From NCBI RefSeq assembly GCF_002797675.1, contig NZ_PGEX01000001.1:2356001-2420000 (forward strand): a stretch of 64,000 bases of DNA. The letters are read 5' to 3'. The notes beneath the pieces were generated by a model. That model was not told the DNA's origin and did no database searches. It was given only the letters and a program-made list of their open reading frames with translations. Below are positions 7,991 through 41,835 of this stretch, piece by piece; position 1 is the stretch's first letter, and every line of letters starts with the position of its first letter. A program made the position numbers and the translations under genes. Source of the DNA: Hallerella succinigenes (GTDB taxonomy: Bacteria > Fibrobacterota > Fibrobacteria > Fibrobacterales > Fibrobacteraceae).

Positions 7991-8836
7991 ATGAAGAACG
8001 CGAAGAAGAAGCCTTCGATCCGTAAAAAAGCACCTTATACCTTTGTCGTGGACGTGGGCAATACGCATACCGTCCTCGGTATTTACAAAGGCGAAAAAAT
8101 TGAAGACCATTGGCGCCTGACGACTCGCAAGGAAACGACGAGCGATGAAGTTTTGAACCGTGTTGGCGGCCTGATTCGCTTTTCCAAAATCAAGCTGGAA
8201 GAAATCTCCTTTGTGGGACTTTCGACAGTGGTGCCGGTTTTGGAACGCCCTTGGGTAAAGGCCCTTCAAAAGCTTTTGAAGAAACCTGTCCAGGTGGTGA
8301 ATTCGAACAACTGCCTTGATTGCCCGATTGCGTATTTGAATCCGGCTTCCTTGGGCGCGGATCGTCTTTGCAACATTATTTCGCTGCGTGATCGCGGCTA
8401 TACCGATGCGATTGTCATCGATATGGGGACGGCGACGACATTTGACGTGATGAAGGATGGCGGTTTTGAAGGAGGCTTGATCATTCCGGGCATCAGCGCT
8501 AGCATGGATGTTTTGACGGAAAAGGCGGCTCGTTTGAAGCCGGTGAGTATTGAATGGGCTGATCGCATAGTGGCGAACAATACCGACGATGCGATTCGTG
8601 CGGGTCTTCTTTACGGCTTTATTGCGGAACTCGAATCCTTGGTGCAAAAAATCAAGAATGAACTCGGTAAAAAGAACGTTCCTGTTTTTGCCACGGGAGG
8701 CTGGGGCCGTATGGTTCTCGGTCACAGCGATGTGATTGATACGTATGATCCGTATTTGACAGTCAATGGGGTGCGCCTCGTTGCGATGTATGGAAATAAG
8801 GCCGTCGAAATCGATCGTGACGGCGATGAAGAGTAG
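7991..8836 (+). CDS. coaX: Type III pantothenate kinase
   Basis: A 281-aa ASKHA-fold kinase phosphorylating pantothenate, the first step of coenzyme A synthesis. The phosphate-1 motif is [14 protein letters not shown], the substrate region shows [14 protein letters not shown], the phosphate-2 motif is [14 protein letters not shown], followed by [10 protein letters not shown] Lys-rich N-terminal extension of about 17 residues precedes the first strand and is longer than usual. Another ATG in a better context was not found, so the extension may be real. It lies directly behind nadC. Confidence 0.94.
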
Positions 8837-8880
8837 CCTTTTATTTATATATATTCTTCAAAGACATTTCTGGAGTTTAT

Positions 8881-9813
8881 ATGCGTTGTTTAGTGACCGG
8901 CGGTGCTGGATTTTTAGGTTCGCATCTTTGTGAACGTTTGTTGGATGATGGTCATGAAGTGATCTGTCTCGACAATTACTTTACAGGCAGAATGAGCAAT
9001 GTGGACCACTTGCGTGACAATCGCCGATTTGAACTTATTCGTCACGATGTGACCGAACCGATTCTGTTGGAAGTTGACCGCATTTTTAATTTGGCTTGCC
9101 CGGCAAGCCCGATCCATTACCAGTATAATCCGGTCAAGACGATTAAAACAAGCGTGATGGGCGCCATCAACATGCTCGGTATGGCAAAGCGCGTCCACGC
9201 TCGAATTCTCCAGGCTTCGACAAGTGAAGTCTACGGCGACCCGGATGTGCATCCGCAGACCGAAGATTACTGGGGAAATGTGAACCCCATCGGTATCCGC
9301 AGCTGCTATGATGAAGGCAAGCGCGTCGCAGAAACGCTCTTCATGGATTATCATCGTCAGAACCGTGTGGACATTCGCATCGTGCGAATCTTCAACACGT
9401 ACGGTCCGCGCATGCTCGCCAATGACGGTCGCGTCGTCAGCAACTTTATCGTGCAGGCTTTGAAGGGTGAAGACATTACCATTTACGGTTCGGGCGAACA
9501 GACCCGCAGCTTCTGTTACGTTTCGGATCTGATCGAAGCGATCGTTCGAATGATGGATCAGAACGATGCGATTGGACCTGTGAATATTGGAAACCCGCAT
9601 GAATTTACGATGCTCGAACTTGCCCAGAAGGTGATTGACCTGACGGGAAGCAAAAGCAAGATTGTTTACCTGAGCCTTCCAGGAGATGATCCGAAGAAGC
9701 GTAAACCGGATATTTCTCGTGCAAAGAAAGTGCTTTCGAATTGGGAACCGGTCGTGCAGCTGGAGGAAGGCTTAAGAAAGACGATTTCCTATTTCGAATG
9801 GACTTTGAAATAG
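8881..9813 (+). CDS. UDP-glucuronate decarboxylase (UDP-xylose synthase-like)
   Basis: A 310-aa extended short-chain dehydrogenase. It shows the NAD motif [15 protein letters not shown] and the YxxxK active site in [10 protein letters not shown]. The block [20 protein letters not shown] separates UDP-xylose synthases from dTDP-glucose dehydratases and epimerases. It probably converts UDP-glucuronate to UDP-xylose for surface glycans, fitting the sugar transferases upstream. The ATG at 8881 follows TGGAG at good spacing. An AT-rich stretch with TTTATTTATATATATT upstream suggests its own promoter. Confidence 0.9.
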
Positions 9814-10873: not shown

Positions 10874-11566
10874 ATGGAAAATCTGGTTGGAATTTTGATT
10901 ACCTTTGCGATTATCGCTTATTCTGCGCATCGCAAGGCGAAACAGCAACGGCAGAATCAGCTGCCGACTGAATCGTCGCGCAAAGCGTCTTGGGAATCAG
11001 AAGATACAGGTGAAGAATGGGAAGAAGATTCCGAAGAGAATTTGGAAGAACCAGAAGAATTTTCTCCGCAAACGCCGGATCCCTTGCAGGATCTGATTCG
11101 CAAGTTCAAAGAAGAACAGGCGAAGGCGATGCGTGGGGAAGTTTCTTCGGCTCCGGTTCCTCAAAAGAAAATCATCGAAGCGGAACAGAAAACGCTTTCG
11201 AACGAGATTCCTTCCGGACATCGGGAATTTGAACACAGGGCGAAGCACTTTGAGTCGACTCCGACTCCGAAGGCGCCTGCACATTCCTATGCTCCGAAAA
11301 AGGATTTTACCCAGGTTCCTGCTCACGAATTTGTAGAGGCAGAACCTGTCTTTACCGCAAAACCGAAATTTGTGGTTTCGCAGGATCCGAGTGCAGACGT
11401 TTCTTTCCACGAGATTTCTTTGGAACAGAAGGCTTCAAAGCGTGCACCGAACCTTAATCTGAATATAAAAGAAGCCCGCAAGGGATTCTTGTGGGCGAAG
11501 GTTTTGGACGATCCGCGTTTTAAGCGCCGTTCACCGTATCCGTTTACTCTGGATCGTTGGGCATAA
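10874..11566 (+). CDS. Membrane-anchored acidic protein, function unknown
   Basis: A 230-aa protein with one N-terminal membrane segment (residues 3-16, NLVGILITFAIIAY) and a long, charged and probably disordered cytoplasmic region. That region has an acidic patch around residues 45-65 (EEWEEDSEENLEEPEE). A conserved-looking C-terminal block reads EARKGFLWAKVLDDPRFKRR. Bacteroidetes have short anchored proteins ending in a similar arginine/isoleucine-rich motif, but I do not know a function. It is probably co-transcribed with floA. Its last 23 bases overlap a convergent PspC gene. Confidence 0.7.
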   Translation: MENLVGILITFAIIAYSAHRKAKQQRQNQLPTESSRKASWESEDTGEEWEEDSEENLEEPEEFSPQTPDPLQDLIRKFKEEQAKAMRGEVSSAPVPQKKIIEAEQKTLSNEIPSGHREFEHRAKHFESTPTPKAPAHSYAPKKDFTQVPAHEFVEAEPVFTAKPKFVVSQDPSADVSFHEISLEQKASKRAPNLNLNIKEARKGFLWAKVLDDPRFKRRSPYPFTLDRWA

Positions 11567-11732
11567 CCGCCCAGCAAATCAAGTAAGCGAGCAATGCCGT
11601 TCCAAACGAAATGAGCGTTGCTAAAATCCAACCGATTCGAACAATCGTCGCGTCTATGCCGAAGTATTCTGCAATACCGCCGCATACGCCGACGATTTTT
11701 TTATTGCTTTCGGAAAGAGTCAGTTTCTTCAT
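11544..11732 (-). CDS. Small PspC-domain membrane protein
   Basis: A 62-aa protein that is almost only a PspC domain: KLTLSESNKKIVGVCGGIAE, then YFGIDATIVRIGW, then a membrane segment ILATLISFGTALLAYLICW. PspC domains occur in phage-shock and envelope-stress proteins. A stand-alone copy is common in Bacteroidetes-like genomes, and its partner is unknown. The ATG at 11732 follows GGGAG at suitable spacing. An ATG six codons upstream precedes that site and is less likely. Confidence 0.85.
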   Translation of the reverse strand: MKKLTLSESNKKIVGVCGGIAEYFGIDATIVRIGWILATLISFGTALLAYLICWAVMPNDPE

Positions 11733-11846
11733 CGTGAAATCTCCCAGCATTCGGGTTAATAAATCTTTTCAAAAATAATGTAGAAATTTAGCGCCGAAAA
11801 GCGTCTAGTATATGGAGCTTCTCTCATTCAACCATAGGAGTCAAAA

Positions 11847-13058
11847 ATGAGAGTTACCCATTTAAAGCGAATTTTCCCCATTGTTACGTTGTCGATGCTT
11901 TCGGCTTTTGAATTTTGGGGCTGCACCCAGGGCGAAAACCCGGAGGTCTCTTCGGGGGAACTTTCCTCGGTGCATTTGGATGTTGCTGCAAAAAGCGTTC
12001 CGCTCTCGGATAGTATCGTGGTAGACTTTGTTGGCCCGGATACGATTCACACGGTTCTTTCGGAGGGAGAAAAAACTTTGGATCAGAGGCTTGATCCGGG
12101 TGACTGGAATTTTTATGCCAAGCATTATGCAAATGGAATGCTCGTGCAACAGGGCGAAGTTTCGGCGAACCTCGTGGCGGGGGAAAATGTTTCCCTTTCG
12201 ATTGCGATGCATGCGGTTGCGGGATTCTTTTACGTGCGCATCCCGCTCGGTCTTGAAAATTCGATGGGGATTTCTTCGGGAACGTTGCAGGTTCGTGGTG
12301 AAGATTTTTCCAAGGATTACGCTTTTTTGGTAGGGGAAATCGAAGCGACTGCGGCGACGGAGATGCTTGTTCTTGGACAGGAATATGATGCGAAGATTCT
12401 TCTTTTTTCGGCGGAAGGGGATACTTTGTTTGAAATCGATTCCCAGGTGACGATCGACGGAGAAAACTTTGTGCTCGACTGGCAGTTGAACTCGTTGCAC
12501 GCGAACGTTTCTCTTTCGATTTCAAACGATTCTATTCGTACGTTAACAGCGGTTGCGCATTTGCCATCCAAGCTTCGGGCTCCGCAAAAGGGAGACTTGC
12601 TGGTTACGGAATTCATGACGGAAGGCAAGGAAGAATTCGTGGAGTATTACAATGCAAGTCTTGATACGTTGAATCTGGAAGGCTGTTCCCTTTGGGCAAC
12701 GAGCACCTCCTCGCTCAAGCAGATGACCGATTCCGCTTTTACGGCAAAGATCGCTCCGAACGCTTATCTGGTCTTTGGAAAGGATTCTCTGGAAGGCCGT
12801 GATGTAACGGTTCCGCTTGCGATGCCCGGAACTAAAGGTTCGATTGTTTTCCGCTGCGCTTCGGGAACGGTGGATTCTCTCTTTTATGCGAGCGCTAAAA
12901 ATGTGGCAAGCGATTCGCTCCTGATTTCGGAGTTCCCGATTGATTCCAAGATGAGTGTGCAGTTGCCGCTTTTCAATTACAAGACGCGCGCCGAGGGAAG
13001 TTCTTGGTGCAATGGGGAATTCTCATTGCATGCGGCGGCAAATTGTGAAGGAATTTAG
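11847..13058 (+). CDS. Probable lipoprotein with lamin-tail-like domain
   Basis: A 403-aa exported protein. The N-terminus is basic then hydrophobic and ends in EFWGC, a weak lipobox; lipidation is likely but not certain. The middle (about residues 40-240) is beta-rich with repeated strand-like segments and no recognised enzyme motif. Around residues 248-300 the sequence GDLLVTEFMTEGKEEFVEYY resembles a lamin-tail domain, often found in secreted or surface proteins. The function is unknown. A ribosome-binding site AGGAG lies just before the ATG. It converges on a Cys-rich lipoprotein 13 bases downstream. Confidence 0.7.
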   Translation: MRVTHLKRIFPIVTLSMLSAFEFWGCTQGENPEVSSGELSSVHLDVAAKSVPLSDSIVVDFVGPDTIHTVLSEGEKTLDQRLDPGDWNFYAKHYANGMLVQQGEVSANLVAGENVSLSIAMHAVAGFFYVRIPLGLENSMGISSGTLQVRGEDFSKDYAFLVGEIEATAATEMLVLGQEYDAKILLFSAEGDTLFEIDSQVTIDGENFVLDWQLNSLHANVSLSISNDSIRTLTAVAHLPSKLRAPQKGDLLVTEFMTEGKEEFVEYYNASLDTLNLEGCSLWATSTSSLKQMTDSAFTAKIAPNAYLVFGKDSLEGRDVTVPLAMPGTKGSIVFRCASGTVDSLFYASAKNVASDSLLISEFPIDSKMSVQLPLFNYKTRAEGSSWCNGEFSLHAAANCEGI

Positions 13059-30680: not shown

Positions 30681-31217
30681 GTGGAAAAGAGTATTCTGAC
30701 AAAGAAGGGTTTTACCCTCATTGAAGTGTTGGTCGTCGTTGCCATCATTGGCATCTTATCTGCGGCCGGTTATTCGAATTTGCGCCAGGCGATTGCCAAC
30801 AATCGCGTGAAAGACGCTGCTTTTAATGTGGCCGCTTTTGCAGAAACGGTAGCGAACAAGGCAAAACAGATCAGTGATACGGTCTGTGTCAAGGCGGATA
30901 ACAATGTGCTTGTGGCTTATAAATCTGCCTGTACGGAAACGGGTACGGCGACGGTGCTCGATCGGCTGGAAATGCCGACCGGTGTGAATCTGGTAGCGAT
31001 GACGGAATCTTCGTTTGATGGAAGCAACTGGCTGACAAATGGCACGGGTGCGCAATTTGTGCCTCGTTTTGGAATTTCTGCCGCTCCGTATGAAGGTTAT
31101 TTCTTGGTGCGGTATTTGGAAACGGATTTGTTCGGTGCAGCCGTTAAGGTGGAAACCCGGAACAGCTTCGTTTCAAAAATCAGTTACGATGGAAGAGAAT
31201 CTTGGGCGGATCTGTAA
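30681..31217 (+). CDS. Type IV pilin-like / prepilin-type protein
   Basis: A 178-aa protein with a class III prepilin leader: MEKSILTKKG followed by FTLIEVLVVVAIIGILSAAG. The peptidase would cut after Gly10 and methylate Phe11; Glu5 of the mature protein is present. The rest is a beta-rich globular head. It is the first of four co-oriented genes encoding pilin-like proteins. The start is a GTG at 30681. A possible promoter (TTGTTT at 30642, 17 bp, TGTATA at 30665) would leave almost no leader before it, and no ribosome-binding site is seen. Major or minor pilin status cannot be decided. Confidence 0.85.
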   Translation: MEKSILTKKGFTLIEVLVVVAIIGILSAAGYSNLRQAIANNRVKDAAFNVAAFAETVANKAKQISDTVCVKADNNVLVAYKSACTETGTATVLDRLEMPTGVNLVAMTESSFDGSNWLTNGTGAQFVPRFGISAAPYEGYFLVRYLETDLFGAAVKVETRNSFVSKISYDGRESWADL

Positions 31218-31229
31218 GGAGCTGGTGGA

Positions 31230-31703
31230 ATGGTGTGGTCTCGTGAAAAAATAGCCAAGGTGGCCAAGAAGGGCTTCGGGATTATTGAAGTCCTGATTGC
31301 GATTGCTGTGCTTGGCTTTTTGTATGTGGCGCTGAACCATTTGCAGACGGGAAACCGGGATACGCTTCTCCGTATTCGCGGCCGTGATGGCGCGATAGAG
31401 GTCGCGCAACAGGTGGTGGATTCTTTGAGCAGTCTCGGCATTTCAAGTTTGACTTCGGGTTCGACGATTACGATTGATACGATCACCCGCACTTGGAAGG
31501 GGAAACCCGGCAGTAACCAGTATGAGATGCAGGTGAAATATTCGACAAAGGTTGAGGTCGGTCCGGACTCTTTTTTTACCCGCAGGGATACGACCGCTTA
31601 CGATACGACTTCGCATGTATATGCCAAGCGTTTAGAAGTGACCGTCTCTTGGAAGTATAAGAATACCGTCCCATTCATCAGCATTTCGAGGATTATTCAA
31701 TGA
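31230..31703 (+). CDS. Prepilin-type minor pilin (PilV-like)
   Basis: A 157-aa protein with leader KKG followed by FGIIEVLIAIAVLGFLYVAL, including the conserved Glu5. It resembles PilV/GspI-type minor pilins, which prime pilus or pseudopilus assembly. It follows the previous pilin by 12 bases with a good ribosome-binding site (AAGGAG) and overlaps the next gene by four bases. Confidence 0.85.
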   Translation: MVWSREKIAKVAKKGFGIIEVLIAIAVLGFLYVALNHLQTGNRDTLLRIRGRDGAIEVAQQVVDSLSSLGISSLTSGSTITIDTITRTWKGKPGSNQYEMQVKYSTKVEVGPDSFFTRRDTTAYDTTSHVYAKRLEVTVSWKYKNTVPFISISRIIQ

Positions 31704-33010
31704 AGAAGAGTGGCTTTACATTGATGGAACTCGTGGTGTATATGGCGATGATTGGCATCGTCGTATTGGTGGCTGGTCAGGCTTTTTCGGACAGCACCAA
31801 GTTCCGCGTGAGAACGCAGAATATGCTGCGCGCTTCGGAAGAAGCGGAAAACGTGGCAAATCTCTTTAAGGATGACGTGGCGCAGATGGGGGCGAAGGCT
31901 TCTCTGGAATACAAGGCTTCTTCGGAAACGGACTCTTTCTACATGGCAAATCTGTCGAGCATTTATATGAATCCGACAGCTGTGAGTCCGGATTCTTCGT
32001 CTTTCAGGATTGGTTCGGCTTCGACGAATGAGAATACGGATACATTGACGCTTCGCCGTATGCGTTTTGATAACAATGGCCATTATGTTTCGATTGAGGA
32101 AATCGAGTGGTTTGTGGTAGACAGTACGCTTTACAGAACCTGTAAGGTGATTGAACAACGGGCGGGTGTAAGTTTTGAAGATAAAGACCCATGTTCGAAT
32201 ACATCGAACCCGACTCCGGTGCAGATTGCGTCAAACGTGGCTCAGTTCTATGTGGAACCGGCAAAGCCTGGAGTTTCTGGCTTGGAAACGACTCAGCTTT
32301 TGCCCTCTACGGATACTTCGGTGCACAATTTCCGTTTGATTTCCCGCGGTGGCACGGAATACTGGAAAACGGTGACGGTTTCGGATCCGTCAGCCTCGGT
32401 TTCTATTTCGGGCTTTACCGCGAACTATGACTTTGATGAAAATCTGGTCGTGGAAGATGGAAAGTTGGCAAGCCAGGTCTTTGTTGGAGCTCCGAATTCG
32501 ACGACGGGTGACTGGCAGAGCCTTTGCCAGCAGGTGACGCTGGAGCCCAATGTGGACTATGAAATTTCGTTCGATATGCCGTATTCCGAAGATGCAACCC
32601 GAATGTTTGTGCCAGGACGTGATCACATGGCGGTGGGTTTCCGCAATGTTTCGACGGGGGATCGCCCGGTTGTGCTGAAGGATTTCCTCTTTTACCCGCC
32701 GGTTTCCTCTTTGTCTGCAGGGGCTCGCCACATGCGTTTTACGGTTCCTACCACGATTGAAAATGTGTGCATGGCGTTTACCTTTGCGAGCTATTCTCCG
32801 ACGGCAGCAACCGGCTACGTTTATATCCGTAATTTGAGATTGGACAAGGTGGCGGCTTCCAACTATACGTTTGAAAATTATTTCCCCAGCACGAATAGAG
32901 ACAAGCAGAATGTGAAGGCGTTCCGTTTGCATTTGACGATTAACCGCAGAGGTGAAACGGGACATACGATGCTTGTTATCCCGACACCGAGCAATGGACC
33001 ACGGAGCTAA
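31700..33010 (+). CDS. Prepilin-type minor pilin (PilW-like)
   Basis: A 436-aa protein with leader MKKSG followed by FTLMELVVYMAMIGIVVLVA, keeping Glu5. The large extracellular part is beta-rich with no enzyme motif. The length and the position after a PilV-like gene fit a PilW/GspJ-type subunit. A region around residues 240-400 (GDWQSLCQQVTLEPNVDYEI and following) resembles a carbohydrate-binding-like jelly roll; this is a guess. The stop codon overlaps an ATG at 33010 of the next frame, but the next gene more likely begins at 33025. Confidence 0.82.
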   Translation: MKKSGFTLMELVVYMAMIGIVVLVAGQAFSDSTKFRVRTQNMLRASEEAENVANLFKDDVAQMGAKASLEYKASSETDSFYMANLSSIYMNPTAVSPDSSSFRIGSASTNENTDTLTLRRMRFDNNGHYVSIEEIEWFVVDSTLYRTCKVIEQRAGVSFEDKDPCSNTSNPTPVQIASNVAQFYVEPAKPGVSGLETTQLLPSTDTSVHNFRLISRGGTEYWKTVTVSDPSASVSISGFTANYDFDENLVVEDGKLASQVFVGAPNSTTGDWQSLCQQVTLEPNVDYEISFDMPYSEDATRMFVPGRDHMAVGFRNVSTGDRPVVLKDFLFYPPVSSLSAGARHMRFTVPTTIENVCMAFTFASYSPTAATGYVYIRNLRLDKVAASNYTFENYFPSTNRDKQNVKAFRLHLTINRRGETGHTMLVIPTPSNGPRS

Positions 33011-33024
33011 TGCGGAGGTTGATT

Positions 33025-36000
33025 ATGCAGAATAGCAAGAAAGGCGTTTCGTTAGTTGTCGTTTTGCTTTTTATGCTCGTTGCGACCATCGCTGCGACGG
33101 CGACTTATCGTTGGTTAACGGCTCAAAGTAAAGCCTCTGCTTCGCGAATGGTTCAGAGTGAAGCCTACCAGTCTGCTGTGGCTGGGATTGAAGCGGCTCG
33201 TTCTTGGATGACCTACCACGGCAATGACCTGGGCGGCATTATTAAGCAGTATTTTGATGATGCTAAAAAGCCGATCCTTTTGGATTCTGTGCTTCAAAAT
33301 ATTAATCGTCGCGGGCAAAGATATGACGTTTGGCTTGTGGGCGTCGATGTGACGTCGACCGAGTACAAATTGAAAATCGTTTCGCAAGGAGTGGCGCGCA
33401 ACGGTTCAAAGCATAGCGAAGTGGCTGTGCTGAATGTGAGCGGCTTGTACCGAGTGCGAGTGCCGAGCGATAATTCGGGCCTTTTGAATTTTGAAGAATC
33501 GTTCTTTGGCAGTGTGAGCGGAACTCAGGCGTATGATGTGAACTCGGGCATTATTAATGGTGACGTGACGATTGGCGGTGGTTACGCAACTTCTGCGGAT
33601 CACTTGATTGTGACGGGAAACTTGACCGTGAATTCGAATACGAATTTGGGTGATGTTTACGTTCAGGGTGATCTTTCTAGCTGTACCAATTTCCAGGTTT
33701 CTGGAAATGCGTTTGTGAAGAATGTGTTGTATGTTGGCGGTGGTCAGAATGGCGTTCGGATTGGCGGGGATTTGTATAATATTGCTTCGATTAATTTGAA
33801 CCCTTCTGGAACTTGCGGTCCTGGTGCATTGACTGTGGGTGGCAACGTGACCACGGAAGGCAACTTGGTGATGCCGCATTACTCTAGTGCTGATACAAAT
33901 ACCATTGCTGGAAATTTGGTGGTTTTGGGACAGATGGATTTCCCGGAACATTCCGAATGTAATCCGTCGCTGGGTTGTAATGTCGCTTATTTGCAGTGGG
34001 TCTTTAACGCCTACGGAAATATTTATGTAAAAAATGGCATGGATGACGGTTCTCACTTCTTGTATCAGACCGCATCGAATTTAGTGTTAGGCAACGCATC
34101 TTCTGATGAAGTTTATTTGGGATCCTCGCCCATGTACCAGGTCTCGGATGCAAACTTGAATCTGTTATATACGCATTGGCTGGATCACCATCTGACGGGG
34201 TCAAATGGAACTTTGACATACACGACGACGGATGAGTGGAATAATGTCCATTCGTCGGACATTACTTATAAGTATTCTAGAAATACATATTGCAATAGCT
34301 CTAATTGTGCACCTTCGTATAATGGGTCCTCTGCCGAGTGGTCGTTCTATCAAGATCGTACGGATTTTTATGGTTCGGAATTAGATTATTATCGAGACGA
34401 TATTTTCTTCCAGGTCAACGGAAATTTGACGACGACGGTTCCGGATACGAATGGCTGGGGAGCGGACCGCATGACGAAATATGCAGAAGCGATCACAGAA
34501 GAATCGGATGGCAATTGCTCGGGTGCGCATATCAAGGATCCGATTCAGTTCAATGCGAATTTACTTCAAGAGTCTACTCTGATTAATTCTAGCAATCCTG
34601 GCGTTTGCACGAATGCAAATGTGCTCTTGACGGCTAGTGGCAATGCTTCGGAATTTTGGGGATCTGAAAATAACGGCTCTCGTTGGGGTGAATTGAATAA
34701 ATGTTACGATCTTGCGAACGCGGCGAATACGCTGTATGAAAATTCTTGGCTGTTGATTGAATTTGGTACGACGACATTTGCAAACATCAATGGTGAAACC
34801 ATTTCCCATAATATGATTGTCATTTTTGATGAATACACGAATGTGATTTTGCCTCCGACGACCTCCTCGGCTTATGTCATCATGTATTTTAGGAATGGTG
34901 GCTCCATTCAGATCAATGATCTGGGTAGCTATCATAACTACTTTATTTACAGCGATGGCGATCTTGCATACAATGACGGTTCTTCGGATGGTATTTCGGG
35001 CTCGATTTTCCTTTCGGATTGCCATTCCATTAAGTCTAATAATAAGGTGACTGCAGAATACAATTCGAGCCTGACCAAAGCTCTTGTGGAAGCGGGGGTG
35101 ATTTGCGATAATGACGGAACGGGCGTTTGCAGTACGGACTCGGAAGAATCCGAGGAAGAAGAGGATGAATCCGTATCCAACGGCTCCTATGACAGCTACT
35201 ATGTTTCGATTGCTCCGCAGCTCGGGATCAGTTTGCTTTCTCAGTATCGCAATAATGAAACTGATGTGGAAGAACTGGAAGAGGGCGACTATACCGAGAT
35301 AGATCCTTCCATTCTTATTTTGCCTCGTATCGTTTATTTGACGCAAGACCCGGTTGGTAAATTGCCGGACTATTATAACGTCATCAATTTGAACGGTGCG
35401 TCGGAAACGAAGACGGCGAGCCGCGTGACCTGTTCCCCGACTCTTCCGACGACAGGGGCTCTTTACGATGGAACTAATGCGTTGGATGAAGGCATTTACA
35501 ACTGTACTTACGCAAGTAATGTGAATGGAAATGCGACCTTCTATGTTGTTGTTTCGGGAACGAGTTCTTCGAATCCGAAGGTGCATTTGGAAAGTGGCTA
35601 TGCGGAAGTTACCGCTGGTGGTTCTGCCGATGTGAACTTGGTTATTCCGGCTTCCACACGATCGGAGGAAATCAGTGTCGATGTCCAGGTTCCGGATATG
35701 CCTACAGGTTGGTCTGTCACTCCGTCGTCTTATGTGACATTGAAGAGCGGAAGTGTTTACACGGCTACGGTAACTCCGTCTTCGACGGAATCGGTTGTGA
35801 CTCTCTTCACGGTGACGCTAGAGTCCAGTACGACTCAGGGAACGGCAACATTCCAGTTGCTGACGCCTTGCGACGGTTGCACCATTACGTCTCCGGATAT
35901 GGAAACCGTTTACATTTCCGGCGTGGCGACGGTAATCCGGTCTGGCCTTGAAGAATATTGTTCTAATCACGAAGAAAATTGCCCGGCAAATAGCGAATAT

Positions 36001-39000
36001 GATCGGGTAAAGAGTCGCCCGAATTGCGATGCTTTGGTCAATAGCAGCGATGTCTGGGTGAAGGCGTCGGGAATGAACTGCCGCACGACGGCTGTGAATC
36101 ATCAGTGGGTTTGCGGATTGAGCAACGCTATTTCGCTCAAATCGGCTTCGGGATATCCGGATGAATATTGCGACCTTTATTTGCCGGCAGAAGATAACTC
36201 GATTGCGGCTCCGCAAAATGATGAAACCTATACCCTGTATGCAGAATTAAAGCGCAAGCCTTATACGTTGCATGTGAATTTGGGCGGAACGAATCCGACT
36301 TCGGTCAATGTCTATACGTCAACGATCAGCGGGGAATTCAAATCGACAGCGGATTATGAATGCTCGGATGAAACAAACGGTTGCGATATTACGGTCTATG
36401 CCGGTTATTACGTAAAGCTCGAAGTGGACGATGACCATGACGAGGAATTCTCCTATTGGAGATGTGCAGGCGATGATTGCACGAATCCGACGGAATCGGG
36501 CAACCCGCTTTACATGCTGATTACTTCAAATAATTCGGTCACCGCTTACTTTGGTGAAAATGATAAGCATTGCTTCTATGATTCTTTCGATACAACGGGA
36601 ACGTCTTGTTCGAGCGGTCAGTATTACTGCGTGGATAATTGCCTAAAGAACGGGTCCAACTGTTCTGTTACGGATGGTGGCCATGCGGCTACGGCCAAGT
36701 GGCTCTTGATGAACCAGGAAGCTTCGGGACACATTGAAGTTGCGGACAGCCGGATTTCTTTGATCGGTGGTTCGGATGTGGATTCCGCAGCGTTCATTAT
36801 GAGCACGAATCAGGCCGGTGCAACGGGCTCGTTAAAAACGATGTTCCAGACCCAGGTAATCGGTGAAAATGAAGATTCCAAATCGGGATTGAATTCCGGC
36901 TTTGTAATCCGCTCCAACGACAATGCCACGAACTACTTTATGCTGAATGTCTTTGGATCTGGAAGCGATGGAATTTTGCATGCCCGCCTTTGCAAATCGA
37001 CTTCTCGCCAATTGACTTCCTTAGGAAATTGCGTAGATCGCGTGATGAAGGATGCAGACAGCAATACGGTTTCGATTTCGACTCAGACGATGATTTTGAT
37101 GACGGTCGAGTTAGCTCAGGCTGCTTCGAAAACAAGCCTGACTTCGACACCGACAAGCTCTGCGCTCAATGTATCCATGGAAGTCGGCTTTGGCGGGTAT
37201 GAAAGTTCGAATACTAAACAGGTGGCGACGAGTTTTGATTTGAGCGATCTCTTCGGCACGACTTGGAACGATCTGGATCATGAATATTTAGGTTTTAAGC
37301 TTGGCGATGAAGCGTTCAAAATCTATGACATCGGTTGGAAGAGCGCGGCCTATGCGGATTCCTGCTGGGAAACATACCCGACGGCGAGTTGTTCCTTTAA
37401 GGCGAACTATCTGGGTGGTATTGTGCCGAAGGATACGGATGTGAAGCCTTGGGTGACGCTTTCTTCTTGGTTTGATAAGCAAAATTGCGAGCCGCTGTAC
37501 TTGTATAACGAATACGTTTCTGTTTATGGTGGACGAAATTCTGCTTCGCTTACAAAGAATGAAGTTTATGGTGCATATTATTATCAGCCTACGAATAATC
37601 GGTATGAATATTACTGGATATATGATGGGTATAATTTTAATACGGAGGGCATGTACGGTTATGAGGCTACAACGGTATATACCTATTATAATTACTGGAC
37701 TGGTAAGTTTGAAACGGTGACTTATACAGGAAAGCATTACGATGCTGCAGTCAAGATCTACTGTCCGAATCAGACGCTTCGTTATCATTCGGAATCGAAA
37801 TATGCATCGTATACAGCGGGAAGAACCAGTTGTGGCTCCTTCTACGTGGGCAAAATGCATGCGTGCTCGGAGAACGCTTTGTTTGATGTAGAAAGTCAGC
37901 AAATCTTTGCCGGCTCGGAAACGACGATTTCTACGAAAAATTCCGCGGTGGTCAACGTTCGCGATGCAAGCCTTTATTTATCGCTCGATAATTCTTACGG
38001 CGCAACGATTACTGTCCGTTTTATAGATGAAAATGGCAACAGGAGCTTGCCTATTTCGACAAGCAAAACGGGCACGGCTACGTTCTCTGCCAATACGATG
38101 CTTGCGACCAATGCGAGTTCTTCGCAAACACAAGAAACCTATCTTGCTGAATCTTTCGATCCACAGAAGGTTGTAGGCATTGTTATTTCGACAACCAATA
38201 CGTTTACCCTCGTCAGCGCGGGAACGACTTGCCCGAACGCGATGAATATTTCAAATTGTTCCGTTTCTTATAACGGTTCGTCTTGGCTCTTTAATGCTTT
38301 GATTACAAACGCTTCGTCTGCCAAAACGAATGGTTGCTCGATCACGGGTGATTTTGGGTCTGGGAATGCGCCTGCAGCGATGGATTGCCCGACGACGAGT
38401 CCGGCGGAATTTGCTGTAGAAGATGCAGGCGTTTATGAAAGTTTGAATACGGAAAAAACTTATTCGTTTGATATCGTCGTGGAAAGTGACAATGACAAGA
38501 TTTCTTGTACGGCAGAAACGACGCTTTACCCAGCGGAACTAACCTGCGATATTTCGACGGGTACAGTGACGGCGGGCTCTGGAACCGTTCCAACTTTAAA
38601 TTATCAGTTTACAAATTGCCCGAACGGTGGCTGTACTTATACCGTTTCGTTGACAGGTCCTGGCGTGAGCGAGAAAACTTCGGGAACGTTCTCGGAATCT
38701 GCGGCTCAGTCTTGGTCTCCGACGAATTTGAACAATTCAGCGTCTAGTCCGTTGCAGCAGGGAACTTATACCTATACGTTGAATTCGATGAATCCTTCGA
38801 ATCGTTTTTGCTCGCAAACTTTTGAAGTGACGGAATCCGTAAATCCGGAAGTAACTAGTTGCAGCGTGACAAGTACGGGCGCGTTTACAGCTGCCGTTTC
38901 GAATGTATCGGATTTGACATATTCCTATACGCTTCAGGTTGCAGATAACTTGGGTAATGTGATTTCGGGAAAAACTTTGAGCGGTTCTTCGAATACGAAA

Positions 39001-40356
39001 AACTTCTCGGGAACGATTACGCCGCCGACAGCTGCGGGGGATTATAACTACGTGTTGAATGTCACCTATGGAGGCGCTTCGAGTACTTGCCAGGCTACGT
39101 TAGAAGTACAAGCGGAAAGTTCAAGTTCTGCGTTCGTATCGAGTTCGAGTGGGGCTGTGACTGCAACTTGTAAGCTGTACAATAACAGCAACGAAGAAAT
39201 TGTATCTGCGTTTACGGGGACGAGTAACTTGTATTTAAGCGTGACTCATGATGCATCTTCGAATACGCAGGCCTATTTCTCGGGGACTGTTGCTGAATGG
39301 AATGGTTCTGCAAATGCAGATGTGGAAAAGACTAGCGAAAGCTTGTGGCTGAACGCTAATCAGAATGCGACTAGACGTTTTACAGCTCCTGTGACAGCGG
39401 GTATATATACTTATTCTGTAAGTTTGAATGGTAGTCAGTTGTGTGCTGCCACGTTAGAACTTACAGACGCCTTGACCTGTGCTGCACCAACAACAGTTAA
39501 TGCAGGGGAATCTTTCGCTCTTACGGGAACTTATTCGGGTACATCTTGTGCAAAAGGTTGGACACATAATCTTTCTGGTACTGGAACTGAGTGGCCTGGT
39601 GAATTGAACTGCACAAGTTTATCTCAGAATTTCACAGCACCTTCGACTCCAGGGAGTTATCAGTATGTAATGTATGTGGAGGGCTCTCCTAATGCTAACT
39701 GTACAAAGACGGTTACGGTGGAACAAGTGCCTCCGACATTTGCATGTCCGTCGAATGCCAAGGCTTCGATTGGGGCCTCGGATAATGTGAAGCTTGCGTT
39801 AACCGGTGTAACCGGATGTGATGAAGGTGGAGATTATTGCAATTATAGCGTCACCGGCGATGGGAATATCAGCGTCTCGGGAAATAGCTATACCGGTGGA
39901 ACTCTCCCGGTGTTTACGGATAATACGGTTACATCGGAAGATTCAAAGTCGTATACCGTCCGTTTGACAAATTCTGCGGGTTCTGTGGAACACGATTGCA
40001 GTGTAGAGTTTACGGAAGGTTCTAGCACGAATTATACAATTTGTTTAGATAAAGCCGATAATGACGGATGGCCACAAATAACTTCGGGAATATCGAATAC
40101 TGGTACATACGAGGTGCTTCATGATTGTCAAGGAACAAATTCTAATAGTTTCTTCTACACCTGCTCGAATGGTGCCGATATTTCATGGAATGGGTCTTCT
40201 CTGACATGCAATGGAGTTGAACAACAATCTTCAACGGCATCAATGCCTGCATCCGGCACTATTCTAACAATTAATTCTGGTACATTAACTAAGATAGGTT
40301 GTGAATATTCATCAGGAACGAGTCCCTGTTCTGGAACTGGGGTTACAAGCAATTAG
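33025..40356 (+). CDS. Giant PilX-like surface protein (about 2,443 aa) with exchangeable C-terminus
   Basis: The N-terminus, MQNSKKG then VSLVVVLLFMLVATIAATAT, is PilX-like and anchors the protein in the pilus assembly machine. Residues about 160-330 are a beta-helix-like series of turns (GNLTVN, GDLSS, GGDLYN, GGNVTTEGNLV). An acidic patch near residue 710 (ESEEEEDES) precedes long Cys-containing domains. From about residue 1730 there are tandem Ig-like modules of 80-95 residues, each with a few Cys, and an SSSS linker near residue 2035. The last 109 residues, after Ser2334, lie in a predicted invertible segment. The ATG at 33025 follows GGAGG at six bases; the ATG at 33010 precedes that site. 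I infer a pilus-tip adhesin, perhaps for plant fibre or a host surface. No enzyme motif is seen. Confidence 0.83.
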   Translation: MQNSKKGVSLVVVLLFMLVATIAATATYRWLTAQSKASASRMVQSEAYQSAVAGIEAARSWMTYHGNDLGGIIKQYFDDAKKPILLDSVLQNINRRGQRYDVWLVGVDVTSTEYKLKIVSQGVARNGSKHSEVAVLNVSGLYRVRVPSDNSGLLNFEESFFGSVSGTQAYDVNSGIINGDVTIGGGYATSADHLIVTGNLTVNSNTNLGDVYVQGDLSSCTNFQVSGNAFVKNVLYVGGGQNGVRIGGDLYNIASINLNPSGTCGPGALTVGGNVTTEGNLVMPHYSSADTNTIAGNLVVLGQMDFPEHSECNPSLGCNVAYLQWVFNAYGNIYVKNGMDDGSHFLYQTASNLVLGNASSDEVYLGSSPMYQVSDANLNLLYTHWLDHHLTGSNGTLTYTTTDEWNNVHSSDITYKYSRNTYCNSSNCAPSYNGSSAEWSFYQDRTDFYGSELDYYRDDIFFQVNGNLTTTVPDTNGWGADRMTKYAEAITEESDGNCSGAHIKDPIQFNANLLQESTLINSSNPGVCTNANVLLTASGNASEFWGSENNGSRWGELNKCYDLANAANTLYENSWLLIEFGTTTFANINGETISHNMIVIFDEYTNVILPPTTSSAYVIMYFRNGGSIQINDLGSYHNYFIYSDGDLAYNDGSSDGISGSIFLSDCHSIKSNNKVTAEYNSSLTKALVEAGVICDNDGTGVCSTDSEESEEEEDESVSNGSYDSYYVSIAPQLGISLLSQYRNNETDVEELEEGDYTEIDPSILILPRIVYLTQDPVGKLPDYYNVINLNGASETKTASRVTCSPTLPTTGALYDGTNALDEGIYNCTYASNVNGNATFYVVVSGTSSSNPKVHLESGYAEVTAGGSADVNLVIPASTRSEEISVDVQVPDMPTGWSVTPSSYVTLKSGSVYTATVTPSSTESVVTLFTVTLESSTTQGTATFQLLTPCDGCTITSPDMETVYISGVATVIRSGLEEYCSNHEENCPANSEYDRVKSRPNCDALVNSSDVWVKASGMNCRTTAVNHQWVCGLSNAISLKSASGYPDEYCDLYLPAEDNSIAAPQNDETYTLYAELKRKPYTLHVNLGGTNPTSVNVYTSTISGEFKSTADYECSDETNGCDITVYAGYYVKLEVDDDHDEEFSYWRCAGDDCTNPTESGNPLYMLITSNNSVTAYFGENDKHCFYDSFDTTGTSCSSGQYYCVDNCLKNGSNCSVTDGGHAATAKWLLMNQEASGHIEVADSRISLIGGSDVDSAAFIMSTNQAGATGSLKTMFQTQVIGENEDSKSGLNSGFVIRSNDNATNYFMLNVFGSGSDGILHARLCKSTSRQLTSLGNCVDRVMKDADSNTVSISTQTMILMTVELAQAASKTSLTSTPTSSALNVSMEVGFGGYESSNTKQVATSFDLSDLFGTTWNDLDHEYLGFKLGDEAFKIYDIGWKSAAYADSCWETYPTASCSFKANYLGGIVPKDTDVKPWVTLSSWFDKQNCEPLYLYNEYVSVYGGRNSASLTKNEVYGAYYYQPTNNRYEYYWIYDGYNFNTEGMYGYEATTVYTYYNYWTGKFETVTYTGKHYDAAVKIYCPNQTLRYHSESKYASYTAGRTSCGSFYVGKMHACSENALFDVESQQIFAGSETTISTKNSAVVNVRDASLYLSLDNSYGATITVRFIDENGNRSLPISTSKTGTATFSANTMLATNASSSQTQETYLAESFDPQKVVGIVISTTNTFTLVSAGTTCPNAMNISNCSVSYNGSSWLFNALITNASSAKTNGCSITGDFGSGNAPAAMDCPTTSPAEFAVEDAGVYESLNTEKTYSFDIVVESDNDKISCTAETTLYPAELTCDISTGTVTAGSGTVPTLNYQFTNCPNGGCTYTVSLTGPGVSEKTSGTFSESAAQSWSPTNLNNSASSPLQQGTYTYTLNSMNPSNRFCSQTFEVTESVNPEVTSCSVTSTGAFTAAVSNVSDLTYSYTLQVADNLGNVISGKTLSGSSNTKNFSGTITPPTAAGDYNYVLNVTYGGASSTCQATLEVQAESSSSAFVSSSSGAVTATCKLYNNSNEEIVSAFTGTSNLYLSVTHDASSNTQAYFSGTVAEWNGSANADVEKTSESLWLNANQNATRRFTAPVTAGIYTYSVSLNGSQLCAATLELTDALTCAAPTTVNAGESFALTGTYSGTSCAKGWTHNLSGTGTEWPGELNCTSLSQNFTAPSTPGSYQYVMYVEGSPNANCTKTVTVEQVPPTFACPSNAKASIGASDNVKLALTGVTGCDEGGDYCNYSVTGDGNISVSGNSYTGGTLPVFTDNTVTSEDSKSYTVRLTNSAGSVEHDCSVEFTEGSSTNYTICLDKADNDGWPQITSGISNTGTYEVLHDCQGTNSNSFFYTCSNGADISWNGSSLTCNGVEQQSSTASMPASGTILTINSGTLTKIGCEYSSGTSPCSGTGVTSN
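40011..40026 (+). repeat. Left inverted repeat of the invertible segment
   Basis: TACGGAAGGTTCTAGC. Read in the gene frame it crosses codons for Thr-Glu-Gly-Ser-Ser. Its reverse complement occurs exactly at 40728-40743. The flank at 40003-40010 (GTAGAGTT) is a degenerate copy of an outer arm. Confidence 0.85.
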
Positions 40357-40382
40357 CAAAACATTTCTATGATACTTGTGAT

Positions 40383-40419
40383 AATGAAAAAATCCCTTTT
40401 CTTTAGGGACTTTTTCATT
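40383..40419. terminator. Symmetric bidirectional terminator inside the invertible segment
   Basis: The outer arms AATGAAAAA and TTTTTCATT and the inner stem TCCCT/AGGGA form a near-perfect palindrome with A and T runs on both sides. It works for either orientation, so transcription would end after whichever tail is in the expressed position. Confidence 0.85.
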
Positions 40420-40484
40420 ATCTCCATTCTTACCAATCTGTGGAACAGGTTAGATCGGATGGGGCGGATTACAGCTAAAAAAGG

Positions 40485-40743
40485 CTACGGAATATCTGCC
40501 CAACAACTTGACCCTGTTAGTTCAATGTAGTATTCCGAAGCATCAGCATAGTCTTTTACAAGGCCGAGTGAAATCGCTACTCCATTGACCTTTATTACGC
40601 ATGAACCCGAAGAATTGATGTAACTTGGTTTTGATGTTCGATAGAAACAATAAGAAGGGCTGCTTTCCCACTTATTATATGTAGCTGTGTTCAAGTTATC
40701 ACAATTTGCATCGCAAGTACAAGTTGAGCTAGAACCTTCCGTA
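40485..40743 (-). pseudogene. Silent alternative C-terminal cassette for the giant pilin-like protein
   Basis: On the minus strand the frame runs through the repeat (Thr-Glu-Gly-Ser-Ser) into 80 further residues and stops at 40485. It has no ATG, ribosome-binding site or promoter; only a TTG at 40694 could start it. The sequence has the same flavour as the expressed tail. A Cys-rich beginning (STCTCDANCDN) is followed by a block SYINSSGSCVIKVNGV that aligns loosely with DISWNGSSLTCNGV in the expressed tail. This supports a stored variant rather than an independent gene. It is intact, not decayed; 'pseudogene' here means silent. Confidence 0.72.
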
Positions 40744-40751
40744 GGTTCTAG
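40728..40751 (-). repeat. Right inverted repeat with dyad-symmetric arms
   Basis: Positions 40728-40743 are the exact reverse complement of 40011-40026. The site has perfect 8-bp arms CTAGAACC (40729-40736) and GGTTCTAG (40744-40751) around a 7-bp centre TTCCGTA. This is the form of a tyrosine-recombinase core site with two binding arms and a crossover spacer. Confidence 0.8.
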
Positions 40752-40810: not shown

Positions 40811-40837
40811 GAAAGCCTCCCGAAAGGGAGGCTTTTC
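40811..40837. terminator. Intrinsic terminator
   Basis: Ten-bp stem AAAGCCTCCC/GGGAGGCTTT with a GAAA loop and A/T runs. It follows the Rpn-family gene (-) and also shields it from readthrough out of the pilin operon. Confidence 0.85.
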
Positions 40838-40854: not shown

Positions 40855-41835
40855 TTAGGGCTGTTTGGCTTCCAGTTTGGCCTTAAAAATGGAGATTTGC
40901 TCTGGGGTCAAATTCATGCCTTGTAGAATGTCGAGGGCTTCGCTAAGGCTTTGTGCGCGTCCTTCCGCAAGCCCTTCTGCGCGTCCTTCCGCAAGTCCCT
41001 GTGCTTTGGCGCGAATCATTCCACCGGCAAGCCGTGTATCGATTTCATCTTGCGTAATCATGTCTTTAGCCTGCCTTGTTAAAAGTTCATCGTTTGCGTT
41101 TTCAATTCTTATCCGTTCTAGGGCGCTCCCAAGGACTTTATTGCCGAATCGAGGTAGTTCTTTGCCATCACCGGCATGATTTAGCAAATATAGCCAGGCG
41201 TCCATGGTCCCATTGACTTCGCCAATAGATTTTTTGAAGTTGGGGAGACTAATCATAATATACCTATTTTTATTAAAGATAGGTGTCAGGATGCCTGATT
41301 TCAAAGAGTTGCGATTATAGAGAGCCCATTCGTCTATGTACTCTCCTTTGGAAGCCGGAAGGTCGAAGTCGCAGATCCATATGGATATAGTCTCGGGAAG
41401 CTCGTAGCGCTTGCTTTTGCGAGCATCTTTGGGAAGTGCTAAAAATTCTTCGGAACGGTCCATTTCCTGTTTTCCTTTGATGATGAGAAATGCCTTGTAT
41501 AAAACGGCTCTATCAATCAAATAATCGTGTTCCGCTTTCTGCATTTCGATGTCTAGAAAGCGCCCGCTTCCTGTTGTTGCAAAAATGTCTAGGATAACTT
41601 TTTTGCTTTGGGCGGAATACATGGATATGGTCTTGTCGAAAGAAAAGGAGAGATTCTTGATTTTCTCGTCGCCTTCTAATTCGAGAACTCCGTCCAAAAA
41701 ATCTTTGAGAGCCTCTTTGCTATCGAAGAGTTCCTTGAAAGCGGTGTCATATTTAGGGTCCATGTAGATTTGACCCTGTAACTGTTCCGGAATCGGATTC
41801 TTGCGTTTCTGTTTTATTGGCTTTTCTTGTTTCAT
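40855..41835 (-). CDS. Rpn-family PD-(D/E)XK nuclease / putative transposase
   Basis: A 326-aa protein of the recombination-promoting nuclease family. The N-terminus has DPKYDTAFKELFDSKEALKD. The nuclease core shows VILDIFATTGSGRFLDIEMQ, giving the Asp and ExQ residues of the fold. The C-terminal part has Ala-Glu-Gly-Arg repeats (AEGRAEGLAEGRAQ), a common variable tail in this family. Rpn proteins are DNA endonucleases; many copies occur in Fibrobacter-like and Bacteroidetes genomes. It lies directly next to the invertible segment. It is not a known type of inversion recombinase, so the link may be chance. Confidence 0.87.
   Translation of the reverse strand: MKQEKPIKQKRKNPIPEQLQGQIYMDPKYDTAFKELFDSKEALKDFLDGVLELEGDEKIKNLSFSFDKTISMYSAQSKKVILDIFATTGSGRFLDIEMQKAEHDYLIDRAVLYKAFLIIKGKQEMDRSEEFLALPKDARKSKRYELPETISIWICDFDLPASKGEYIDEWALYNRNSLKSGILTPIFNKNRYIMISLPNFKKSIGEVNGTMDAWLYLLNHAGDGKELPRFGNKVLGSALERIRIENANDELLTRQAKDMITQDEIDTRLAGGMIRAKAQGLAEGRAEGLAEGRAQSLSEALDILQGMNLTPEQISIFKAKLEAKQP
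40954..41001 (-). repeat. Two tandem 24-bp coding repeats in the Rpn gene
   Basis: Units at 40954-40977 and 40978-41001 differ at only a few bases and encode the Ala-Glu-Gly-Arg rich 8-residue repeat near the C-terminus. Confidence 0.8.

Follow-up and report, generated by a model that had tools for sequence, protein, structure and literature searches.

In this study, we report a putative DNA-inversion switch at the 3' end of a giant minor-pilin-like gene of Hallerella succinigenes, carried on a 64,000-nucleotide stretch of DNA that was analysed in full and is referred to below as the window. We consider it very likely that the locus is a two-state, shufflon-like switch operated by site-specific recombination on the giant minor pilin, inversion within a clone being inferred. 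According to the proposed mechanism, a 0.73-kb segment would invert between two inverted tyrosine-recombinase sites (core TACGGAA, right arm GGTTCTAGC), such that the giant minor pilin would end in tail A in one state and in tail B in the other, and a central bidirectional terminator would end the transcript in both states. The recombinase would act in trans and is inferred to be, probably, the 326-aa enzyme of a pilin array; the less likely enzyme, also inferred, would be a relative of a recombinase located between the minor-pilin operons of other species. The anatomy of the locus, the intact in-frame alternative, the same architecture with other cores in other genera, and the expression by one species of a tail that another keeps silent have been established. 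There is good support for the locus working like a two-state PilV shufflon but not for its being an Rci shufflon; no homology to Rci was established.

The putative switch locus and its alternative tails

The giant gene is the last gene of the minor-pilin operon (Table 1). Its product, 2448 aa long from the first ATG and 2443 aa from the next, the latter matching the earlier count, has a body of repeated Ig-like and Ser-rich sequence followed by the switchable C-terminal tail A. Homologues of the protein are present in 95 of the 111 family genomes, and no Pfam or NCBIfam model names either the protein or the tails. From the pilin-like start, the operon and the analogy with PilV, the giant pilin is inferred to be located, probably, at the pilus tip, and on the same grounds the tails may represent alternative binding or antigenic tips.

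Table 1. Features of the switch locus, with positions in the window
Feature	Position	Strand	Description
Minor-pilin operon	30681..33010	+	three genes with prepilin N-methylation motifs; upstream of giant gene
Giant minor-pilin-like gene	33010..40356	+	2448 aa; type IV pilin-like N-terminus KKGVSLVVVLLFMLVATIAATATYRW
In-gene recombination site	40003..40026	+	degenerate left arm GTAGAGTT, 7-bp core TACGGAA, right arm GGTTCTAGC
Tail A (currently expressed)	40027..40356	+	109 residues after TEGSS plus stop
Palindrome/bidirectional terminator between the two tails	40380..40422		predicted to serve either orientation
Tail B (silent)	40485..40727	-	80 residues after TEGSS plus stop; no own start codon
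Distal recombination site	40728..40751	-	palindrome CTAGAACC-TACGGAA-GGTTCTAGC as read on the minus strand
Terminator of neighbouring PDDEXK_2 gene	40812..40835	-	just outside invertible segment
PDDEXK_2 (Rpn-like) gene	40855..41835	-	convergent; adjoins distal site

The preliminary description of this DNA had proposed that a 16-mer, TACGGAAGGTTCTAGC, recurs as its exact reverse complement on either side of the segment. The pair was recovered at 40011-40026 (plus strand) and 40728-40743 (minus strand), contained in a 34-nt repeat that is 79% complementary, and no further copy was found at up to two mismatches in the 3,127,022-bp single-contig genome. Because 8 of 300 windows simulated with a first-order Markov model (about 3%) have a 16-bp inverted pair as close (100-1500 bp), the bare repeat is only moderately unusual and constitutes weak evidence. 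The repeat alone is unconvincing, and the case for the switch is carried by the reading frame, the extended similarity and the relatives.

As had been described, the left copy lies within the giant ORF, and the right copy forms the head of a minus-strand frame without ATG, which opens only a few codons ahead of the repeat and stops at 40485. The left copy is translated within V-E-F-T-E-G-S-S and the right copy, on the minus strand, within L-E-P-T-E-G-S-S, followed by 80 residues and a stop. The claim that inversion would exchange the tails in frame was borne out in silico, where it yields a protein of 2419 aa ending in the 80-residue tail STCTCDANCD...SSCWADIP after TEGSS. Perfect 8-bp arms around a 7-bp centre, which had been claimed for the right repeat, are indeed present at 40729-40751 (CTAGAACC-TTCCGTA-GGTTCTAG). 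The palindrome between the tails, previously suggested to act as a terminator in both orientations, has a strong predicted fold on either strand (z -6.7 and -7.1), with T runs on its flanks; the same inter-tail arrangement exists in a relative, G112 (L144 4610-4660).

On the evidence of sequence comparison, the tails are real domains, and homologues of the silent tail B form genuine C-termini in other genomes. Tail A shares 70% identity with the tail of the G002 gene and 71% with a segment of a silent inverted cassette in G068, which belongs to another genus. Tail B matches the C-terminus of a 1948-aa giant pilin in G087 (L089) and that of a 477-aa lipoprotein-like frame in G096 (L088, E 6e-11), the latter alignment reaching the last residues (...TGSSCYWDIK in G096, ...TGSSCWADIP in the window). 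AlphaFold models of the tails were poor, with mean pLDDT of 46 and 63.

Related loci and their sites

The 3' ends of 127 giant-like ORFs with a stop were screened for inverted pairs joining the gene to a new tail, and two loci cut by contig ends were also taken in from outside this set. Reversed downstream sequence served as the control and gave short chance matches only, none equal to the complete switches; the survey itself yielded similar short matches, above which the window, G112 and G068 stood out. Comparison of related genomes revealed an equivalent layout in four of them, G112, G068, G008 and G129, which share the order giant gene, site, tail, inverted tail, site and convergent PDDEXK_2 gene; the switch, first described at this locus, is not confined to it. 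Most giant genes in the survey of 127 giant-like ORFs were without a switch.

Two further complete switches were identified in the survey. That of G112 has the repeat TACCGCAGGTTCCAGC, with TACCGCA-GGTTCCAGC as core and arm, and a 100-residue spare tail; that of G068 has a perfect 61-bp inverted repeat (L111 8711-8771 and 12471-12531) containing CAGGAACC-TGCGTCT-AGTTCCAG. Inversion in G068 would replace about 650 C-terminal residues of the giant pilin with a 515-residue silent cassette. The switch of G008 is split over two contigs, one of which terminates about 14 bases past the in-gene core, and the other of which carries the distal site ACCGGATTC-TATTGAA-GGTTCCGGT and the spare tail and breaks off about 140 bases beyond that site. 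These contig ends could plausibly stem from a mixed population, because a repeat of about 21 bp alone should not break assembly; this is an inference made without read data. G129 has a distal site with yet another silent tail, the third one. In a palindrome scan of the 111 genomes, G129 provided the only true site beyond the known loci; the other matches were rejected as mostly unrelated, being a recurrent CCGGAACCGGATCCGGGTTCTTG-type sequence without partner copies. In the nearest relative, G002 (65% identity), tail A is present, the site is changed to TTTGTGGAAGGGTCGG and the contig stops short of any distal site.

The distal sites read CTAGAACC-TACGGAA-GGTTCTAGC in the window, CAGGAACC-TACCGCA-GGTTCCAGC in G112, CCGGATTC-TATTGAA-GGTTCCGGT in G008 and CAGGAACC-TGCGTCT-AGTTCCAGC in G068, where both site copies are identical. 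The left arms of the in-gene sites are degenerate (GTAGAGTT, GTGGAGTT, GTAGGGTT). At the loci where both sites can be compared, the 7-bp core is the same within the pair and different between loci, and the arms are conserved; matching cores within a locus together with conserved arms fit what strand exchange by a tyrosine recombinase requires. The layout of a tyrosine-recombinase inverton, with dyad arms and a 6-8-bp core identical within the pair, is met in the window and in G112, and on two contigs in G008. The shufflon-type layout is also met, the core and right arm being conserved and the left arm variable in the in-gene sites. The distal sites are near-palindromic, unlike sfx, and a whole-genome search found only two sites at the switch locus, so the shufflon feature of more than two sites and multiple segments is not met.

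Recombinases and the pilin cassette array

A genome-wide search for a recombinase, which had been named as a check on the proposal, identified five tyrosine recombinases, two of them Xer-like and the others encoded near 1.01, 1.24 and 2.56 Mb of G000:C1. No serine resolvase was found in the genome, and a serine invertase was rejected as the driver here. There is no PF00589 match inside the window, and the shufflon feature of an adjacent Rci-family recombinase is not met. The candidate recombinases match only general XerC/D/XerA models, below cut-off.

One of them, L008 (326 aa, G000:C1:~1,241,300-1,242,300), is located about 1.15 Mb from the switch, inside a pilin cassette array. This array (L078, G000:C1:1,233,000-1,250,000) includes the pilin gene at 11475-12020 on the minus strand and the recombinase gene at 8295-9275 on the plus strand. 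The type IV pilin (MKKQGFTLIELMVVVVIIGILAAVAVPKL...GPAAGT-YVKLQQAY...) is accompanied by seven silent tails, six of them intact (104-121 residues) and one interrupted by a stop within its site; all tails start at the eight sites TACGTGAAG, which occur in both orientations. Flipping the nearest tail in silico produced an intact alternative pilin. The array is probably a multi-state pilin shufflon and is arguably more important than the tip-protein switch. Recombinases of the L008 type lie next to the pilin gene in G005 and in G022, the latter with a single silent tail, and are also present in G112, G068 and G001.

A site matrix was built from the pilin-array sites and used to rank positions. 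The distal site of the window ranked 9th of 127,952 positions, the distal site of G112 4th, the G068 pair 2nd and 3rd, and the distal site of G008 26th of about 11,000; the in-gene site of the window ranked only 161st, a moderate result. The AACC-TA...-RGTT pattern shared by pilin and switch falls in a different reading frame in each, so the likeness of the sites is not due to protein sequence. On balance, we lean towards L008 as the switch recombinase.

It is also possible, and we hold this tentatively, that the inversion is real and the work of another enzyme, namely a recombinase of the minor-pilin clusters, XerC/XerD or the PDDEXK_2 protein. A second, distinct recombinase (327-338 aa, 87-98% identical) lies in or beside the minor-pilin clusters of G112, G068, G031, G106 and G129, all of which except G106 carry a site, and is situated between divergent minor-pilin operons where both lie on the contig. 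The loci are L271 7362-8345, L272 1951-2934, L275 6362-7378, L276 5103-6119 and L274 3483-4463. This recombinase type is only a second choice after L008, and an unlikely one. Its relative in the present genome, L007, is 31% identical, has ParB- and SSB-like neighbours beside a dnaG-like gene, and looks like a mobile-element integrase. The Xer enzymes draw support from G008 (98% complete), in which neither the L008 nor the L007 type was found and only two Xer-like recombinases are present; the absence of both types is unexplained, and cassette arrays assemble poorly. As for the third candidate, the four switch loci whose flank is intact (window, G112, G068 and G008) all have a PDDEXK_2 gene on the far side of the distal site, but one is also found downstream of 28 of the 104 giant genes that lack a switch. 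A switch-specific partnership is suggestive only, because 31 of 107 giant genes have a PDDEXK_2 gene downstream, and the cases are not independent, because the downstream genes are common to G112 and G068. To our knowledge, Rpn-type proteins are not known as site-specific invertases. The resemblance of the window site to the pilin-array sites speaks against all of these enzymes and for L008.

Elsewhere in the genome, four tandem, near-identical small lipoprotein-like genes (FTDSRDGQTYRTVQIGNQTWMAENLNY...; L076 11037-14114, G000:C1 about 1,012,000-1,015,100) were noted near the integrase L006; they resemble the Fib_succ_major family.

Tail exchange, known systems and biological meaning

The tail that G112 carries silent and inverted is expressed in G096, where the orthologous gene has it in frame at the same junction, VEFAAGSS-GTTIASDVW. 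G096 lacks the spare tail and distal site, and its gene is followed at once by the outer flank seen in G112. In G031 this junction recurs, joined to a fourth tail and again without a spare. The alternative in-frame C-termini that a shufflon carries on its invertible segment are in this way met both in silico and across species, inversion itself being unobserved. As far as sequences can tell, both tails are used within the lineage; switching within one clone is not thereby shown. The coding parts of the G112 and G096 tails are 98.6% identical, versus about 79% for the adjacent body, which indicates that tails also move between species as cassettes. The cassettes compared were L129 3643-4018 and L144 4622-4997, a case of recent cassette exchange. 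The silent G112 tail and the expressed G096 tail have four differences, too few to show selection on the silent copy.

Such exchange could explain part of the pattern, and the whole of it might be ascribed to tails passing between species and paralogues by gene conversion or homologous recombination, as with pilE/pilS or orphan Rhs/CdiA tips, the repeats being by-products. The modular movement of the tails would agree with this, and the 61-bp repeats of G068 are long enough for RecA. However, repeats of 16 bp are too short for efficient RecA exchange, and gene conversion needs neither inverted silent tails nor palindromic arms nor locus-specific cores; we regard it as improbable. Least credible is that the locus is a fossil, either a piece of a gene tail in inverted position or an inverton that was active in the past but has stopped flipping in this strain: the complete genome has the segment in a single orientation, G031 and G096 have the body, the in-gene site and one tail without a distal copy (locked or decayed forms exist) and G002 has lost the site, but the tail B frame is intact and ends at the same place as its G096 homologue, the 16-mers are identical, the distal arms form a perfect palindrome and recombinases of a fitting kind are in the genome.

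Site-specific inversion, the preferred reading, has its closest parallel in the PilV shufflon and Rci of the IncI plasmids R64 and TP114, in which a minor type IV pilin has its C-terminus exchanged by inversion at short sites. The sites are alike as well: the sfx sites of R64 combine a conserved 7-bp core and right arm with a variable left arm (PMC11852207). The window switch differs in being chromosomal, with one spare tail instead of several and a giant 2448-aa protein, in having no adjacent recombinase and no identified Rci homologue, and in its symmetric distal site with arms of about 8-9 bp. In Moraxella, Piv inversion at tfpQ/tfpI is likewise a chromosomal two-state system, joining one of two tails to the pilin start; Piv belongs to the DEDD recombinases rather than the tyrosine recombinases, and the pilin switched is the major one, so that both the enzyme class and the target differ from those proposed here. 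Intragenic invertons of gut bacteria, a class covered by recent surveys, recode a protein end by inversion within a coding region, whereas here one protein family across genera is involved, with homologous spare tails. In hsdS inverting systems with PsrA, tyrosine-recombinase inversion swaps protein parts with silent partners (PMC7096588); the target there is the specificity subunit of a DNA methyltransferase, and in the window it is a surface fibre.

Pili are thought to aid the attachment of rumen and gut fibre degraders to plant fibre (PMC3079729, PMC4704652), and searches of an open-access library turned up no account of phase variation, shufflons or inversion in the pili of Fibrobacter. 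We are evenly divided on whether a single tyrosine recombinase shuffles the main pilin through the 8-site array and flips the tip tail in trans, such that fibre and tip would vary together and spare tails would spread as cassettes across Fibrobacteraceae genera. The two-state tails and their homologous C-termini elsewhere would provide a ready set of domains for binding tests, binding being inferred. If the switch is true, cells of one clone would differ in adhesion specificity, or in their exposure to phages or host immunity, and half of the tips expressed would be missing from view in published assemblies. It is probable that this lineage uses DNA inversion to reshuffle its attachment fibres.
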